49,520 nucleotides of DNA from a virus: positions 1-49,520 of IMG/VR virus record IMGVR_UViG_3300046491_000214. One strand, 5' to 3'. The translations under genes were made by a program, and so were the position numbers. Positions 1 to 20,911 of the stretch are shown in pieces (within the stretch, counting starts at the first letter, position 1; the number at the start of each line of letters is the position of its first letter). The notes below the pieces were generated by a model. That model had not been told where the DNA came from, searched no databases, and saw only the letters and a program-made list of their open reading frames with translations.

Positions 1-1810
1 CGATGATGTTTTTCCGGCGCTGCATAAGTACCTGCAGGTCGCCAAGCGCCTTTTCACGCGCCGATTGATCTTCTTTGCCACCAGCGATTTCGGCCTGCTT
101 CTTGAGGATCGGGATTTCGAGATCGATTTCCTTCACCTGCATGTCGCGCTTCTTCGCGTAGTACTGCTCCTGGCCAATCAGCTGCAACTTGTACTGAGTG
201 TCGAGGTCAGTCGACTCGCCGGCCATCTTTTCCTTCGCCAAGTTGCGCGAGTTTTCGAGCTGGGTCAGCGTGACGTTGTTCACTGCGGAGTACTTCTGAT
301 TGATCTTATTGATCGCCTTCGCAATGTCAGCATCGGAAGCGCCAGCATCCTCACCTTTCTGACGCGCTGCCGCGATCTCCTTCTCGCGCAACTGCTCCTT
401 GGACAGCGTCGTGTCCATGATCTTGTCCCACTCGAGACCGGCCTGACGCAGCTTTTCCGAGATCTCAGCCTGGCGACGATCCCACTCGTCCTTCTCGACC
501 TGCCATTTGAGTTCGCTTTCGCGCTTCTGGAGCTCGGTCAGCTTACCGGCAGCCATCGATCGCCGCATCTCGGCTGCATCCGAGCGGTCGCCGGTACCGG
601 TAGACGGCGCCTGCTGTGCGAGCGCGATCTGGCTCTGCACTTCTGCCAATTCCTGCTGCGGCGTCTTCTTTCGGCCAACGCCGAGAAAGGCGTCCCAAGC
701 CTTCGAAGCTGAATCCTTCGCACTCATCCAGGCGGACTCGATCGCACCTAGGTTGTCCTTCATTTTGGCCGCGCGTTCTTCGAAGGCAGTGGCGTAGGCT
801 TTCTGCGCTACCTCGGCAGCCTCGTCGTTCTTACCTTGGTCCTGCAGAGCCTTAATTTGCTCGTAGACGGCGCTCGTCAGGTAGTGATACGACTCGCTCA
901 GTTTCAAACTCGCTTCGACGGGTGACTTGCCGAGCTCGGCGAAGTCCTTGACGGTATCATCAACACTGCGACCGATGTACTTCTGCACCTCGACGGCGAC
1001 TTGGCCGAACTGCTTGAGGTTGTCCGACCCGACCTGTCCCGTGGCGGTCAGTGCTGCCAGGGCTTTGGCGGCCTCGGCTTGCGTACCGACGGCGTTGCTG
1101 ATCTCACTGGCGTACGCCGCGAGTTGGCTTCCGCTCGTACCGGCCGCGTTGCCAGTCATGATGATGGCTGCGTTGTATGCGTCGGCCTCTTTGCTGCCCT
1201 CGTTATAGGCGAATGCCAGCGCGCCGACAGCGCCAGCGAGAACGGTGTACGGATTCACCAGACCAAGGAGCGATGCCCCTACCCCGCGGATCGTCGCCGG
1301 GATACTGCCGAACGAATCGCGCAGTTGGCTGCCTTGCTGCATCAGGACCATCAGCGGCGATTGGCCGCCGGCGAGCTGCACAGCGATATCAGACAACTGG
1401 GCCGGCACCATGCGCATCGCGTTGGCGATCTGAGCTGAGGATGCGCCGGTGCGCGCCTGGGCCTGCTCGACGTTTCGCAGCGCTGTCAGGTATGGCGTCA
1501 GCGTATTCGGATCGATGCCACGCTGGCGGGCCAACAACTCGTAATATTGGGATGTCGCCCGCCCGCCAGCCTCCATGGCGACGGTCGTTCGCTGGATCGA
1601 GCCGATGATGCTGCGGCTCGCAGAATCCACGCTCCTCGACGAGGTGGCCGCGCCTGAACCTACGGCAGTCACAGCGCGTTCTGCCTGCTCTCCGGCCCGG
1701 GTGACCTGTTGCGCCATCGTGTTGGCCTGCTGCCCGATCTCATTGAAGCCGGCCCGGGTGCGGGTCGTGTCGACCTCCGCCACAAGCTGTACGCGACGCT
1801 CTTCAGTCAT
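1..1810 (-). CDS. Phage tail tape measure protein (3' end cut by window)
   Basis: About 603 codons are visible, from ATG at 1810 (MTEERRVQLVAEVDTT) to the window edge. The N-terminus matches lambda-type tape measure proteins: a short start, then a long Ala/Gln-rich region (NTMAQQVTRAGEQAERAV) and an internal hydrophobic stretch around residues 180-210 (IRGVGASLLGLVNPYTVLAG). It continues with long charged helices typical of the coiled-coil ruler that sets tail length and fills the tail tube. A second ATG four bases upstream (1814) is out of frame and stops at once, so 1810 is the start. It is separated from the upstream tail genes by a two-gene cargo island and two terminator-like hairpins, so it needs readthrough or antitermination to be expressed with the tail operon. 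Confidence 0.9.
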   Translation of the reverse strand, partial: MTEERRVQLVAEVDTTRTRAGFNEIGQQANTMAQQVTRAGEQAERAVTAVGSGAATSSRSVDSASRSIIGSIQRTTVAMEAGGRATSQYYELLARQRGIDPNTLTPYLTALRNVEQAQARTGASSAQIANAMRMVPAQLSDIAVQLAGGQSPLMVLMQQGSQLRDSFGSIPATIRGVGASLLGLVNPYTVLAGAVGALAFAYNEGSKEADAYNAAIIMTGNAAGTSGSQLAAYASEISNAVGTQAEAAKALAALTATGQVGSDNLKQFGQVAVEVQKYIGRSVDDTVKDFAELGKSPVEASLKLSESYHYLTSAVYEQIKALQDQGKNDEAAEVAQKAYATAFEERAAKMKDNLGAIESAWMSAKDSASKAWDAFLGVGRKKTPQQELAEVQSQIALAQQAPSTGTGDRSDAAEMRRSMAAGKLTELQKRESELKWQVEKDEWDRRQAEISEKLRQAGLEWDKIMDTTLSKEQLREKEIAAARQKGEDAGASDADIAKAINKINQKYSAVNNVTLTQLENSRNLAKEKMAGESTDLDTQYKLQLIGQEQYYAKKRDMQVKEIDLEIPILKKQAEIAGGKEDQSAREKALGDLQVLMQRRKNII

Positions 1811-4598: not shown

Positions 4599-5246
4599 TT
4601 ACGAGGCGTAGCGGACGACCTTGCCGGTCACGGCGAAGCCTGCCTTCACGGCCATGACCTGGCCCTTCGACAGGCTCGGATTTTCGTTGAAACTCACGTA
4701 TCCGCTGTACAGCAAGATGGCGCCGCTCGGCAGGACCATCTTCAGCGCGGCGACCTTGGCCGAATTGGATGCGGTACGCAGCACGGCATTGTGCGGCTGC
4801 GTCGGGTCATCGGCGATACTCAGGCTGTAGGTGGTGGCCGAGAAACCGTCCGGCAGGTTGATCTCGGTATCGCTGTCCATGAGGTTGACGTTCGCGTACT
4901 TCGCGTCACCGCCCGAAGGGTCACAGCCCACAACCTGGACGATCGACTGCCAGGTCGTGATCTTGCGAACGGACCCGGTGCCGGCGCCTGCCGGGAACTG
5001 CACGGTATCGGTCGTGTCGAAGCCTTCCAGGGTCACCGACGTCGCCGCCGCGGTTTTGACACGGAAGACGCGGCCCGTGGCCTTGCTCCAGCCGCTGGTG
5101 AACTCGAGGAAGTCGCCGACGGCGTAGGTGTTGGTGGCGGTCGTCAACACAGCTTCCGAGGCGTTGGTCGCCGCGCTGACGTTGATCGAGGCGGCGTACG
5201 CGGAAGCGACCGCGAACGAGATGTTGTTTGGCAGTTGGAAGCTCAC
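4599..5246 (-). CDS. Major tail tube protein
   Basis: 215 residues, beta-strand and Thr/Ala/Val rich (VASAYAASINVSAATNASE, GAILLYSGYVSFNENPSLSKGQVM). Size, composition and position between the DUF3168 completion protein and the gpG-like chaperone identify it as the gpV-type subunit whose hexamers stack into the siphophage tail tube. The C-terminal part (KAGFAVTGKVVRYAS) is typical. It is preceded by two terminator-like hairpins, so it may have a distinct mRNA level from the upstream head genes, as expected for an abundant structural protein. Confidence 0.85.
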   Translation of the reverse strand: MSFQLPNNISFAVASAYAASINVSAATNASEAVLTTATNTYAVGDFLEFTSGWSKATGRVFRVKTAAATSVTLEGFDTTDTVQFPAGAGTGSVRKITTWQSIVQVVGCDPSGGDAKYANVNLMDSDTEINLPDGFSATTYSLSIADDPTQPHNAVLRTASNSAKVAALKMVLPSGAILLYSGYVSFNENPSLSKGQVMAVKAGFAVTGKVVRYAS

Positions 5247-11139: not shown

Positions 11140-12336
11140 TCAGGTCGCGCTGTTCTGGTACAGGCGCACGGCCGCGGTGTCGAGCAGATTGCCGCCCGAG
11201 CGCGTCCAGCCGCAGAAGCCGACTTGCCCCTTGAGGGCGAAGGCCGAGTCGTCGAAGCGGCGCATGGTGGTCGAGTTCGAGACGTCGCGGATGAAGTACT
11301 GCGACAGGTCGCCGAATGCGATCGACTTGGCGTTCGCCGCCATCACGGGAACGTCGTCGTTGATGGCGATCGGCTTGCCGAGCAGCAGGTCAGGCGCACC
11401 TTCGGTGACGGCCGGGATCCAGATCGGGCGCCCGACGGTGTCCACCAGCTTCGACAGGGAGGCTACGCTCAGGTCATTCATCATCCAGCGCGCGCTGCCA
11501 CGGTAGGCGCGGTTGACCGAGTGCTTCACGTCGACCAGGTCACCGTAGGTCACGGCAGCGGTCTGGCCGGTGGCGCCGACTTTTCCGACGGTCGAAGCAG
11601 GGATGAGCCCCAGCGGCTGGCCGCTGCCGGTGCCGACGGTCTGATGCATGTTCTGAATGCGTGCGATGCGGGTTGCGAGACGGTTCACGACGAACGCGAC
11701 GACGTCGATCGCGCTGTCCTGGATCAGCTCCAGCGGCAGTGCGATCTGCTTCGACGAATACTTGAACACCGGGAGGCCCAGCGTGCTGAAGGTCACGTCG
11801 CCGCTGCCTGCACTGCCGTTTTCTGCGACGATTTCGCCGATCTCGCTCGTGCCATCGCTAGTCGGGAAGTTCATCGAGTGACCGGTTTCGGTGGTCAGCA
11901 CGGTAGCGACGTCGCGCATGCCGCCGAATGCCTTGAGGCGGTCGATGACCATGGCGGCGACTTCTGCCGGGACGGTGTAGCCGCCTTCGGCCGGGGTGGT
12001 GGTCGACATGGCGTTGCGGATCGCTGCAGCCTGCTCTGCGGTAACGTTCGAACCGTGTCGCATGTACAGGGCAACGGCAACGAGAGCGCTGATCTCGACG
12101 TCACCACCGGCGGGCTGCGCCTTCCTGGTTGCGTCGTTGAAGAACTTCTCGGCTTCCAGCTCGCGCATGGTTTCGAGGTTCTTGATCTGGGCCTTGGCGC
12201 CGTTGATTTCGGTCGCGAGGTTGTCGAACTTCGCTTGGTCTTCAGTCGACCAGATCTGGTCGCCCTTGTCAGCGATCAGCTGATTGGCCTGGGCTGCGAG
12301 GTTGGAAATCTTCTCGCGCAGTTGCTGGATGGTCAT
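11140..12336 (-). CDS. Major capsid protein, HK97 fold
   Basis: 398 residues. The N-terminal ~70 residues are a charged coiled-coil delta/scaffold domain (QLREKISNLAAQANQLI...IKNLETMRELEAEKFF). The capsid domain begins around residue 110 (STTTPAEGGYTVPAEVAAMV) and shows HK97 gp5 patterns: MNFPTSDGTSEIGEIVAENG, FKYSSKQIALPLELIQDS, WMMNDLSVASLSKLVD, LLGKPIAINDDVP, and AFALKGQVGFCGW. The neighbouring ClpP-like protease would remove the delta domain during prohead maturation. GAAGGA precedes the start. Confidence 0.95.
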   Translation of the reverse strand: MTIQQLREKISNLAAQANQLIADKGDQIWSTEDQAKFDNLATEINGAKAQIKNLETMRELEAEKFFNDATRKAQPAGGDVEISALVAVALYMRHGSNVTAEQAAAIRNAMSTTTPAEGGYTVPAEVAAMVIDRLKAFGGMRDVATVLTTETGHSMNFPTSDGTSEIGEIVAENGSAGSGDVTFSTLGLPVFKYSSKQIALPLELIQDSAIDVVAFVVNRLATRIARIQNMHQTVGTGSGQPLGLIPASTVGKVGATGQTAAVTYGDLVDVKHSVNRAYRGSARWMMNDLSVASLSKLVDTVGRPIWIPAVTEGAPDLLLGKPIAINDDVPVMAANAKSIAFGDLSQYFIRDVSNSTTMRRFDDSAFALKGQVGFCGWTRSGGNLLDTAAVRLYQNSAT

Positions 12337-12347
12337 GTGGTTCCTTC

Positions 12348-12376
12348 AAAAAGAAAAGGGAGCCGCTTGGGCTCCC
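12348..12376 (-). terminator. Terminator-like hairpin between protease and capsid genes
   Basis: Minus strand GGGAGCC-CAAGC-GGCTCCC (12376-12358) is followed by TTTTCTTTTTG, directly before the capsid ribosome site. It could attenuate transcription or, after processing, stabilise the abundant capsid mRNA. Confidence 0.6.
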
Positions 12377-12418
12377 TGATGGCGAGGTAAGACGACCTCG
12401 GGCGGCGCGCGAGAAGCG

Positions 12419-13198
12419 CTATGCTGCTAAGACGAGTGCCAGACGGTTTGCGTTGGCTTGCGCCATGCGCGGGCCGGTCGGCTCGGGCTTGGTGCCAGGT
12501 TGGGCGTCGTGATTAGCAGGCTCCGGCGCAGCGGGTGCCTGGCGCGCAGCAGGCGCAGCGATGTTCGCCGGCGCTTTCGAATAGGCCGCGAGGTTCCACA
12601 CGTTGCTTGCCTTGGTTTTATCAGCCGGCGCTTGCGTGATGCGATCGATGAAGCCGTTTTCGAGAGCCTCCGTAGCCGAGAACCAGGTTTCCGCGTCCAT
12701 CCATGCGATGATCTCCGCCTCGTCCTTACCAGTTTTGGCGACGTAGTCGGCGACAATCGCGCCTTCGATCTTCTCCAGGACGTTGGCTTGCTCGCGCAGG
12801 TCGCTCTTGTCGCCCCACGCGATGCAGCTGGCGTTGTGGATCATGAAGAAGGCGCCCTCGGACATCTCGACTTCGTTGCATGCCAGTGCAATGCTGGTAG
12901 CGGCGCTCGCGCACAGGCTGTCGATGTGGGCAATGGTCTTGCCTTGGAAGCGCGCAAGGGCGGCCATGATGGCGCGGCCTTCGAATACGTCGCCACCAGG
13001 GCTGTTGATGTACACGTGGAGCACTGCGGCATCGCCGGCCTGCGCCACCGCATCGATCACATTCACGGCGCTCACGCCCCAGTAAGGATCGATCACGTCG
13101 TAGATGTAGAGCGACGCCTCGGCCGCGTTGCGCACGACGTTGACCGGACGCTTTTCGCCGCCGGCGTTGTCACGGTACAGCTGGAGGATCTTTTTCAT
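12419..13198 (-). CDS. Prohead protease, ClpP-like
   Basis: 259 residues. The ClpP/crotonase-fold serine protease domain spans ~25-195: HVYINSPGGDVFEGRAIM (oxyanion region), nucleophile Ser98 in SLCASAATS, His121 in FFMIHNAS, and the helix DYVAKTGKDEAEIIAWMD with the third catalytic position nearby. The C-terminal ~60 residues are Pro/Ala rich and low complexity. It matures the capsid by removing the N-terminal delta domain. The start overlaps the portal gene 3' end by 29 bp. Confidence 0.93.
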   Translation of the reverse strand: MKKILQLYRDNAGGEKRPVNVVRNAAEASLYIYDVIDPYWGVSAVNVIDAVAQAGDAAVLHVYINSPGGDVFEGRAIMAALARFQGKTIAHIDSLCASAATSIALACNEVEMSEGAFFMIHNASCIAWGDKSDLREQANVLEKIEGAIVADYVAKTGKDEAEIIAWMDAETWFSATEALENGFIDRITQAPADKTKASNVWNLAAYSKAPANIAAPAARQAPAAPEPANHDAQPGTKPEPTGPRMAQANANRLALVLAA

Positions 13199-17853: not shown

Positions 17854-18375
17854 TCAGTTAAGTAACGACGGCTGCATCGCCGTTTCCAATGACTCGCGCT
17901 CATCGCGCAGTGCCGGCAGTTCGCGCTTTCGGGTCAACATCAGATGTGATCCGAACGAGGCGCGTACCTGCGACCCGACTTCCTTTTCGATCAGCGCCTG
18001 CATCTGCTGCCACAGCGTCTGCTGCTGGCCATGCGCACGATCGAACGCGTCGATTACATCGAGATGAAAATCCGCATCGATCCACATCGCGTACGCGTAC
18101 ACAAGCGGCTTGGTCACAAACGTGCCCTGCGTTATTCCCGGCCTGTTCCCTTTGACGATCGAAACCGGAGTGATGCACAGATCTGTGCATCTCTTCTCAA
18201 TGGCAGCAATTAGCCGCTTCGTTTCATCGCGCCGCATGAACGAACCTGGGCGGTGCTGCTTCGTGGCCTTGCCCTGCGCCATAGCGGCGCGGTGTAGATC
18301 ATTGAGGCAGTAACGTCCATCAGCGTCGCGGTGCACGCCGGTATTTGATATGACTAGCTGGCTCGCGCCGTCCAT
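17854..18375 (-). CDS. KilA-N domain protein
   Basis: 173 residues. The KilA-N DNA-binding domain covers ~8-115: DGRYCLNDLHRAAMAQGKATKQH, FMRRDETKRLIAAIE, GTFVTKPLVYAYAMWIDADFHLDVIDAFD. The C-terminal tail (LTRKRELPALRDERESLE) is charged. Such proteins are phage transcription or anti-repressor factors. The start has GGAGGA. It is the first protein gene after the late leader with its terminators, so it could be made early in the late operon. Confidence 0.85.
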   Translation of the reverse strand: MDGASQLVISNTGVHRDADGRYCLNDLHRAAMAQGKATKQHRPGSFMRRDETKRLIAAIEKRCTDLCITPVSIVKGNRPGITQGTFVTKPLVYAYAMWIDADFHLDVIDAFDRAHGQQQTLWQQMQALIEKEVGSQVRASFGSHLMLTRKRELPALRDERESLETAMQPSLLN

Positions 18376-18392
18376 TCATTCCTCCGTAAACG

Positions 18393-18424
18393 AAAAAGGG
18401 CGACACCCGAAGGCATCGCCCTTT
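18393..18424 (-). terminator. Terminator before the KilA-N gene
   Basis: Minus strand GGGCGATGCC-TTCG-GGTGTCGCCC (18421-18398), a ~10-bp stem with two G-T pairs and a UUCG loop, followed by TTTTTCG. Confidence 0.8.
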
Positions 18425-18535
18425 GCACAAGATGAGGTCTTGACTCGCACCGTACGGCTCGGCTCCTGCCGGATTAAGCATGTCGAGACAACATTCAGCG
18501 CTTCGCAGCGGATGAATTGGATTTGCTACAGGTAT

Positions 18536-18571
18536 AAAAAATGCCGCCGGCGCATTGTTGCGACAGGCGGC
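18536..18571 (-). terminator. Terminator ending the late-leader RNA
   Basis: Minus strand outer stem GCCGCC (18571-18566) / GGCGGC (18548-18543), inner stem CGCA/TGCG with an ACAA loop, then A and TTTTTT (18541-18536). Confidence 0.8.
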
Positions 18572-18638
18572 GAAGTCCAGGAACGAGAGAACCTAGAGGA
18601 GACAGGTTTGTGGCGGCCGGTGCTGGCGTTCCGGCGAT

Positions 18639-18817
18639 GCAATCCGGGATGACGGAGCGTCTGGATTGCCTATGCTCCCTGGCGCATCAGCTAATGCGCA
18701 TACACCACACAAAGCCCGCGGCCGTCGTTCGCACACGCAAGGCGTGCTTGTCGGACTTAGGCTTTGTGTAGCGGCTCCTTACGAGAGCCAGGCGCCGACG
18801 CTCGCATATGGCAGCGT
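18639..18817 (-). ncRNA. Candidate structured RNA of the late leader
   Basis: Five hairpins follow one another: GCAATCC/GGATTGC (18639-18669) with inner GACG/CGTC; GCGCAT/ATGCGC (18682-18699); ACACAAAGCC/GGCTTTGTGT (18707-18769) with inner CACGC/GCGTG; GGCTC/GAGCC (18773-18789); ACGCT/AGCGT (18798-18817). The block lies between two minus-strand terminators, so the minus strand is favoured. No known RNA family was recognised. Confidence 0.4.
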
Positions 18818-18916
18818 TGCCGTATTCAACAAGTCAAGTTGGGATCAGCGGGGCCGGGCCGCTGTGCGTCGGATTGCACGAACCCCAAGGCTATCTGCAC
18901 AAGTGGGCCGTAAACG

Positions 18917-18941
18917 AAAAAACCCGCCAAGGCCGGCGGGT
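18917..18941 (-). terminator. Terminator at the start of the late leader
   Basis: Minus strand CCCGCC (18940-18935) and GGCGGG (18928-18923) across a GGCCTT loop, then TTTTTT. The flanking plus-strand CGTAAACGAAAAA is repeated at the 18393 terminator. Confidence 0.75.
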
Positions 18942-19065
18942 CGTTTCAAATTCTACAGGCGAACGCCGGCTTTACTGCTGGCTGGGCACTCGACTGCCTC
19001 GGGTGATGTTGGCGCCGTAGCGCGCATTACATTTTACCGAGGGAACTGTAGATGAGGACTTAAGT

Positions 19066-19461
19066 TTACGCCTGTTTTTTCGCGCGCGCAACAGTGATCT
19101 CAGCAGCAGCACGTACGATTGCACGGCAGGTGGCGTAGAGGTCATCACCACCTGCCGGCGCGGGCTCGACGACTATAATTGGCGGAGTTCCGCTGGCGTC
19201 AAAACTCCATTCGATTGTCACGCAGCCCGCTGACTCGCATTCGATGCTGACGCGCAGATTCAGCTTCACGGCGAGGCGCAACGCTTCATGCCCGCTATAC
19301 AATGGGTTCCAATGGTCCAGGGTTGTGCCGCGCGGTCGAACGCTGTAGCGGATCGACGACTCGACATCATCCCAAGTTCCATCAATACCCGCCGCCCTTG
19401 CTGCCAGTTCAAGTAATCTGCGGTCCTCAGCGCGCTCCTCATCCGTATATTCGTCCATCAC
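19066..19461 (-). CDS. Hypothetical phage protein, paralogue 1
   Basis: 131 residues. It shares a layout with the next gene upstream: an acidic N-terminus, LLELAARAAGI, DHWNPLYSGHEALRLAVKLNL and a C-terminal CRAIVRAAAEITVA. The WNPL..(D/E)A..LAV pattern recurs in small phage proteins of unknown role. The start overlaps the upstream stop by 4 bp. Confidence 0.7.
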   Translation of the reverse strand: MMDEYTDEERAEDRRLLELAARAAGIDGTWDDVESSIRYSVRPRGTTLDHWNPLYSGHEALRLAVKLNLRVSIECESAGCVTIEWSFDASGTPPIIVVEPAPAGGDDLYATCRAIVRAAAEITVARAKKQA

Positions 19462-20365: not shown

Positions 20366-20911
20366 CTATGCCGCCTGTCGCAGCTTGGCGCCCGCGCGCG
20401 CCCCGTGGGCCTGATACAGCCCTTCCAGTTCACTGATCATGTCCTTCACGCGCTCCACCTCGAGGGCGCCGCCGGCGATCGGCTCTCGTCCAGTGCCGGC
20501 GCAGTGCGAGCACGCGCGGCCGGCGGCAATCTTCGTACCATTGCACACCTCGCACTCACCTTGCAGCCAGTGGGCCAGCGACACACGCGCGATCTTTTCG
20601 TAGATGCCGTGCGCCGCCTTGATGTCCCATTCGTGCTTGATCTTGAGCCATTGGCGAGCCAGGCCCTTTTGCACAACGACCTTCGTCCAGACGCGGAGCA
20701 ATGCGGCCAGATTGTGATTGCCCGCCTCGAATGTCTTGCGGTGGGTGCCGACGGCGTACTTCGTGCGCGCCAGGAGCGAGCCGAAGACGACGCCAGAGCC
20801 GCCCGACAGGTCAGCCAAAGCGGCCGCGGCGAGTGCCTCGGTTTGATGATGCAGTTCGTCGTCCCTCAGGTCCGACGTGTTGAGCGATTGAAGGTACTTT
20901 TCGACGAACAT
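20366..20911 (-). CDS. Candidate antitermination protein, Q-like
   Basis: 181 residues. The N-terminal ~110 residues are helical; then comes a zinc-binding region CEVCNGTKIAAGRACSHCAGTGREP with two CxxC pairs, like the CxxCxGxG zinc motif of phage Q antiterminators and DnaJ. It lies at the end of the early operon, immediately before the late leader with its terminators and all late genes. Q proteins load RNA polymerase at the late promoter to pass such terminators; that role here rests on position and the zinc motif. The start has AAGGAG. An alternative is a DnaJ-type zinc-finger protein of unknown role. Confidence 0.6.
   Translation of the reverse strand: MFVEKYLQSLNTSDLRDDELHHQTEALAAAALADLSGGSGVVFGSLLARTKYAVGTHRKTFEAGNHNLAALLRVWTKVVVQKGLARQWLKIKHEWDIKAAHGIYEKIARVSLAHWLQGECEVCNGTKIAAGRACSHCAGTGREPIAGGALEVERVKDMISELEGLYQAHGARAGAKLRQAA

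Follow-up and report, generated by a model that had tools for sequence, protein, structure and literature searches.

The locus studied here raises a simple question: what does a gap crowded with hairpins do between the early and the late genes of a prophage? The window, by which we mean the whole stretch of 49,520 nucleotides analysed (IMG/VR record IMGVR_UViG_3300046491_000214), is a prophage flanked by the host gene glmM and two tRNA genes. On its minus strand, the gap at 18376-19065 has early-side genes on one side and the late genes for KilA-N, HNH, TerS and TerL on the other, and the listing of open reading frames contains no minus-strand frame of at least 60 aa within it. A DNA search of catalogued phages gave only a 47-bp terminator-like match. 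A preliminary description had placed in this region, on the lambdoid pattern, a late promoter, a leader RNA that is short and terminated, and the target of Q, with a protein encoded nearby as the controlling factor. Our analysis confirms the observation behind that proposal and finds the reading largely right, with its coordinates shifted. We lean towards seeing in the gap the control region of the prophage late operon, a judgement that holds jointly with the whole explanation developed below.

A putative late promoter

Relatives of the Q-like protein encoded at 20366-20911, together with a pattern scan of the most conserved stretch (39 contigs), gave us 36 distinct upstream regions to compare. 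All 36 contain a TTG corresponding to the -35 element of the window (TTGCGC, 19086-19091, minus strand), placed in every case 17 bp from the -10 element. The latter (19063-19068, minus strand) reads TAAACT in 34 of the 36 and TATAAT or TAAGAT in the other two, and would set the start of transcription at about 19056. The spacer is otherwise variable, except for an A-rich centre and, in most loci, a GGCG adjoining the -10 element, in the interval where a Q-binding element would lie. A late promoter had indeed been expected near the early-late boundary; the conserved TTG-17-TAAACT lies at 19063-19091, just outside the range first proposed. From the -10 element to the core of the RNA described below, the distance is 45-53 nt across leader loci. 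The promoter is closely followed by an intrinsic terminator and then by late genes, the arrangement by which Q-type late antitermination is recognised. By eye, the window also holds TACAGT at 19050-19045, a candidate for the -10-like, sigma-dependent pause element that Q-type systems carry shortly after the start, though some relatives lack it.

A conserved two-hairpin leader RNA

The strongest conserved RNA of the gap is an element of about 87 nt at 18958-19044 (minus strand), which scores 118 bits with our model R1 and shows covariation. In its first hairpin (about 19043-18997), an outer stem leads to an internal loop, where GUAAUG faces CCAAC or CCACC, and then to a GCGC stem capped by a UNCG loop, which is swapped for GAAA in Herbaspirillum (L135, L137). 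In the second (about 18992-18960), CGAG/CUCG lies beneath CCRGC/GCCGG. Some unpaired stretches are conserved, such as CMGCARUAMA and UAAUG, while the paired arms vary freely, and in the distant set only the internal loop GUAAU/CACC is near-universal.

Compensatory changes among related phages, named beforehand as one of the observations on which the proposal would stand or fall, are present: both sides change in 14 of the 22 pairs of alignment A8 (59 sequences). Double-change cells number 122, compared with 26.6 +- 4.0 after shuffling and no more than 23 after sliding the partners. These cells count sequences and not events, and A7 and A8, having been fitted to the leader structure, favour that structure. 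With 43 sequences the count was 13 of 22 pairs, and with 33 sequences it was four; this last alignment was not fitted to the model and already shows the covariation signal. Model-based alignments were used because MAFFT misaligned helix 1 in some rows, and the folds of L135 and L168 were left out of the fold comparison because their ranges cut off helix 1. Folding energy taken by itself shows a moderate excess (z -3.8 over the entire minus strand of the gap and -2.2 in the upstream leader); it is conservation with compensatory changes in relatives that establishes the structure as real. Neither the leader RNA nor the hairpin block further downstream matches an Rfam family at the gathering cut-off or at permissive thresholds, and we found no earlier description of such a leader in a literature search with little coverage of subscription journals.

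Terminators of the gap

The leader is followed by the intrinsic terminator T1 (18915-18943, minus strand), a hairpin of GACCCGCC/GGCGGGTT with a tract of six T. A strict script finds a terminator of this type directly behind 48 of 59 leaders. Judged from these signals, the terminated leader RNA would measure about 140 nt, and a structured RNA lying between a conserved promoter and T1 is a good candidate for the short terminated leader that had been anticipated. All the hairpins and minus-strand terminators named at the outset are in the sequence, namely T1, T2, T3 and a long stem with an inner stem.

T2 (GCCGCC..GGCGGC followed by six T, 18571-18536) belongs to a larger module at 18536-18605 (minus strand) made of GTCTCCTC, a small hairpin and the terminator, and recovered at 11 loci (alignment A2). 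The module resembles the Betaproteobacteria toxic sRNA RF02278 in that it starts with UGUCUCCUC followed by a small hairpin and a terminator, but its Rfam score is 28.3 bits, below the gathering cut-off of 50. In the window (18605-18536, minus strand) and in L135, L101, L148 and L152, it shows GTCTCC, a freely changing stem and a terminator tip CGCA[GNRA]UGCG. T3 (18391-18424, minus strand), taken from a simple terminator scan, abuts the ribosome-binding site of the KilA-N gene. That scan missed T2 and found two terminators against 2.7 expected in shuffles, which is not above chance. A 127-bp block at 18394-18518 is conserved in L001, beside the KilA-N gene of that locus.

Several smaller observations concern the same stretch. 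An identical 14-nt TTTTTCGTTTACGG stands behind both T1 (18908-18921) and T3 (18384-18397), and the stretch after T1, CGTTTACGGCCCACTT..CAGATAGCC, is conserved in relatives. At each KilA-N gene examined (18424-18376 in the window; the upstream region in L001-L008), the ribosome-binding site directly adjoins a hairpin that resembles a terminator and may be an attenuator. The KilA-N gene itself (17854-18375, minus strand; PF04383, E 2.4e-18) is found at no leader locus other than that of the window; this and the lack of an Rfam match led us to reject c4-type antisense control of that gene.

A predicted Q fold

Which protein could act on such a terminator? The gene at 20366-20911 (minus strand) encodes 181 aa with a CxxC..CxxC zinc motif. 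Against sequence families and PDB sequences it returned only a zinc motif of the DnaJ/anti-TRAP type, and Foldseek alone gave no significant match for its AlphaFold model, built from a 33-sequence alignment with moderate confidence (pLDDT 67). Realignment of the Foldseek candidates with VIA-align gave as best matches lambda Q in polymerase complexes (7ubn_Q, Z 10.6; 7ubm_Q, Z 8.8), AlpA (7xya, Z 8.7) and crystals of lambda Q (Z 6.3-7.0). The top six rows are all Q or AlpA, and the next, an unrelated entry, has Z 5.2. Since lambda Q and AlpA are the closest structural matches of its predicted fold, we take the protein to be a Q-type antiterminator, in keeping with its earlier nomination as the controlling factor. 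Its family was not found among 50,697 catalogued phages, and the system of Q and leader RNA thus appears uncharacterised so far.

Linkage of the leader RNA with Q

Comparison of loci ties the RNA to this protein. In 37 of 39 viral contigs the leader RNA lies beside a member of the Q family, the other two (L101, L104) being cut-off contigs with less than 250 nt of upstream sequence. Where viral loci offer enough sequence, the Q gene stands 0.1-1.8 kb upstream of the leader; in L136 and L144 the leader RNA is present and Q was not found within the 3 kb available. Q homologues occur in 47 of 294 sampled genomes from the family to which Herbaspirillum sp. SJZ107 belongs, and a sample of 369 genomes of the class revealed Q in no further genome. 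The leader is found downstream of the Q homologue in 29 of the 30 genomic loci fetched (19 recognised by R1 at E < 0.01, one by R2, and nine by eye from core motif and fold), with Q identities of 43-94%. The one locus without a visible leader is L164.

A natural swap points the same way. Three loci (L148, L154, L155) keep the terminator and a promoter of the same kind, with an unrelated protein of 142-143 aa directly upstream in the place of Q (12631-13059, plus strand; 962-1393, plus strand; and 4605-5036, minus strand, respectively), and no leader RNA was found in them. As the leader is missing where Q is missing, although the TerL of L154 is 97.5% identical to that of the window, it follows Q rather than the late genes. 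The replacing protein belongs to no Pfam or PHROG family, the late promoter is encoded within the last codons of its gene, and it may be another antiterminator, a candidate for a further Q type. Finding a conserved RNA almost wherever the Q-like gene occurs suggests, at the level of sequence, that the switch of the late genes relies on an RNA component in addition to the protein.

A second, modular element

The five hairpins at 18639-18817, on which the preliminary description had centred its leader, are conserved, but they lie in a separate element 3' of T1. This element starts with a hairpin CAGCGG..CCGCTG (18846-18864; all coordinates of this element are on the minus strand), found in L085, L089, L095, L102, L133 and others. 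Hairpin A (18798-18817) is conserved in L084, L085, L089, L095 and L102, and has CCC/GGG in place of CGC/GCG in L133. It is followed by hairpin B (18772-18790), whose seven loop-proximal pairs each occur as at least three pair types over 22 loci. Next comes an exchangeable slot closed by CYAC...GTGG (18705-18771). In the window it holds hairpin C, a hairpin also present in L087, L083, L127, L133 and L146; its long stem ACACAAAGCC/GGCTTTGTGT pairs 18760-18769 with 18707-18716 and encloses an inner stem at 18747-18731. Hairpin D, ATGCGCATTAGCTGATGCGC (18682-18701), was recovered with the pattern GTGGYG + D in 18 IMG/VR stretches; two alternative hairpins (18639-18678) are shared with L148 and replaced by other hairpins elsewhere, and the conserved hairpin E, GCCGG..CCGGC (18616-18635), becomes GCAGG/CCTGC in L119. 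The order of the frame is therefore A, B, slot, D, further hairpins and T2 module. The folding energy of the block is z -2.6.

In other relatives the slot holds unrelated hairpins of about 50-150 nt or tRNA-like domains. A tRNA model matches the slot of L091 with 42 bits, the anticodon arm there carrying an insertion of 33 nt. In the tRNA-like domains seen (L091 2124-2221, L119 219-310, L145, L150, L153), the T arm and acceptor stem are kept and the anticodon arm or the D arm is replaced. An intact tRNA-Gly(TCC) or tRNA-Thr(TGT) occurs in the late leader of L089, L099, L107, L118, L120, L121, L128, L129 and L140, often immediately before the T2 module. The second element is conserved but often interrupted in relatives by genes or tRNAs. 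In L087, L127, L131, L151 and L154, a further conserved non-coding CCCGATGAGTGCCGGAGC...GACGCTGTAACCGGC is placed between T1 and the hairpin frame. A single contig, L148, has two more apparent copies of the frame (2765 and 12023), and in L153 a gene at 12109-12963 (minus strand) matching PF25187 (CBASS inhibitor Acb3, E 9.9e-67) lies upstream of the frame element.

As the hairpin frame is also found with other late-control genes, the five-hairpin block is, on sequence comparison, a second conserved element distinct from the leader RNA. Could the functional leader be this block, as a further non-coding RNA of modular build made late in infection? We hold this about evenly balanced, and it does not compete with a role for the upstream RNA, since both can be true. 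The frame is conserved around unrelated inserts, including a tRNA-like one. The stems compared were chosen for complementarity; as a control, the joint criterion for hairpin B and the slot (B>=6, C>=3) was reached at only 35 of 4152 CYAC sites, mostly frame sites. Against it, the element has no link to any given protein, and nothing indicates a function. Structured phage RNAs near or containing tRNAs are known in GOLLD and ROOL (PMC12286853), but these measure 400-800 nt or more against about 250 nt here, differ in structure, and the second element has no Rfam match.

Discussion

We are inclined, with modest confidence, to explain the leader RNA as a cis-acting part of Q-dependent antitermination at T1. 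Just 3' of the early genes, a sigma70 promoter of constitutive appearance would produce the RNA of about 140 nt ending at T1; with the Q-like protein, polymerase would read through T1, T2 and T3 and reach the packaging and head genes. The initial 87 nt or so of the transcript would fold into the two adjacent hairpins, and near the RNA exit channel the nascent leader may contact either Q or the polymerase that bears it. In doing so it could help Q loading or stabilise a terminator-resistant complex, much as put RNA acts on polymerase.

An RNA partner is unexpected from what is known of the family. In published Q systems, promoter DNA is used to load Q onto paused polymerase, whose RNA exit channel is then narrowed by Q; for lambda Q and AlpA, DNA elements and a paused polymerase suffice (PMC9371919). 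Also speaking against our explanation are the moderate confidence of the Q model, the lack of a match from Foldseek alone, and the loci L136 and L144, where the RNA is present and the available 3 kb showed no Q. The locus is like lambda Q, pR', 6S RNA and tR' in having a Q-fold gene upstream of a sigma70 promoter, a predicted short transcript, an intrinsic terminator and late genes. Unlike lambda, its Q protein lacks a primary-sequence family match, other genes often separate promoter and Q gene in loci of this type, and there is a long conserved structured leader RNA, which published Q systems have not been described as needing. AlpA of Pseudomonas aeruginosa (PMC9371919) shares the predicted fold and a GC-rich block between -35 and -10, the site of its binding element GGGACG; in the window the block is instead GGCG adjoining the -10 element, and no conserved leader RNA is described for alpB.

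The main rival, which we consider unlikely, holds that the lysogen makes the leader as a stable small RNA, which acts in trans on host or phage RNAs or proteins. It may hold Q or polymerase, with late transcription reading through only on induction. A strong conserved promoter, short length, a terminator of its own directly behind and the conserved unpaired stretches would all suit such an RNA, and the linkage between Q and RNA would look similar if a trans-acting RNA were inherited with Q. However, the RNA is lost together with Q while promoter and terminator are kept, which fits a cis part better, and its paired arms vary freely around a single near-universal internal loop.

It is improbable that the RNA alone is a put-like antiterminator working with no phage protein, the Q-like protein being otherwise employed. 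There is a likeness: putL of HK022, of about 73 nt, has two stem-loops just behind its promoter, and put RNA binds polymerase directly (PMC9378689); here, two adjacent hairpins of some 70-90 nt lie directly 3' of the promoter and before the terminators. Yet put in HK022 serves early operons and HK022 carries its own Q, whereas the window RNA would serve a late operon, and a Q-fold protein is near the leader wherever there is enough upstream sequence. Model R2 found no match in the HK022 genome up to E 10; the leader RNA is thus not a member of put by homology. Finally, that the 87 nt are conserved as DNA (a Q-binding element with pause signals) or as a leader peptide is very improbable: they do begin at most about 15 nt from the inferred start, in the zone that carries pause elements in Q systems, and most members have a conserved ATG in the leader loop with a short frame, but compensatory changes and UNCG/GNRA loop swaps speak for RNA, and we rejected coding because the frames from this ATG run from 3 to 161 codons with frame-shifting indels, the ATG itself being absent from the L175/L179-L185 group.

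Beyond the cis-acting leader, we put forward more tentatively, and with somewhat less than even credence, a branch of Q in Burkholderiaceae prophages that cannot work without a dedicated structured nascent RNA as co-factor, so that Q and put mechanisms are combined in one hybrid, accompanied downstream by a second modular RNA whose slot is able to hold tRNA-like domains. On the current view, protein, promoter DNA and a paused polymerase are all that Q-type antitermination requires. With a conserved RNA that accompanies one Q family and disappears where another protein takes the place of Q, the idea of an RNA part in the switch becomes directly testable, using one purified protein and a few templates. 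In the second element, exchangeable RNA inserts form a natural series within a constant frame.
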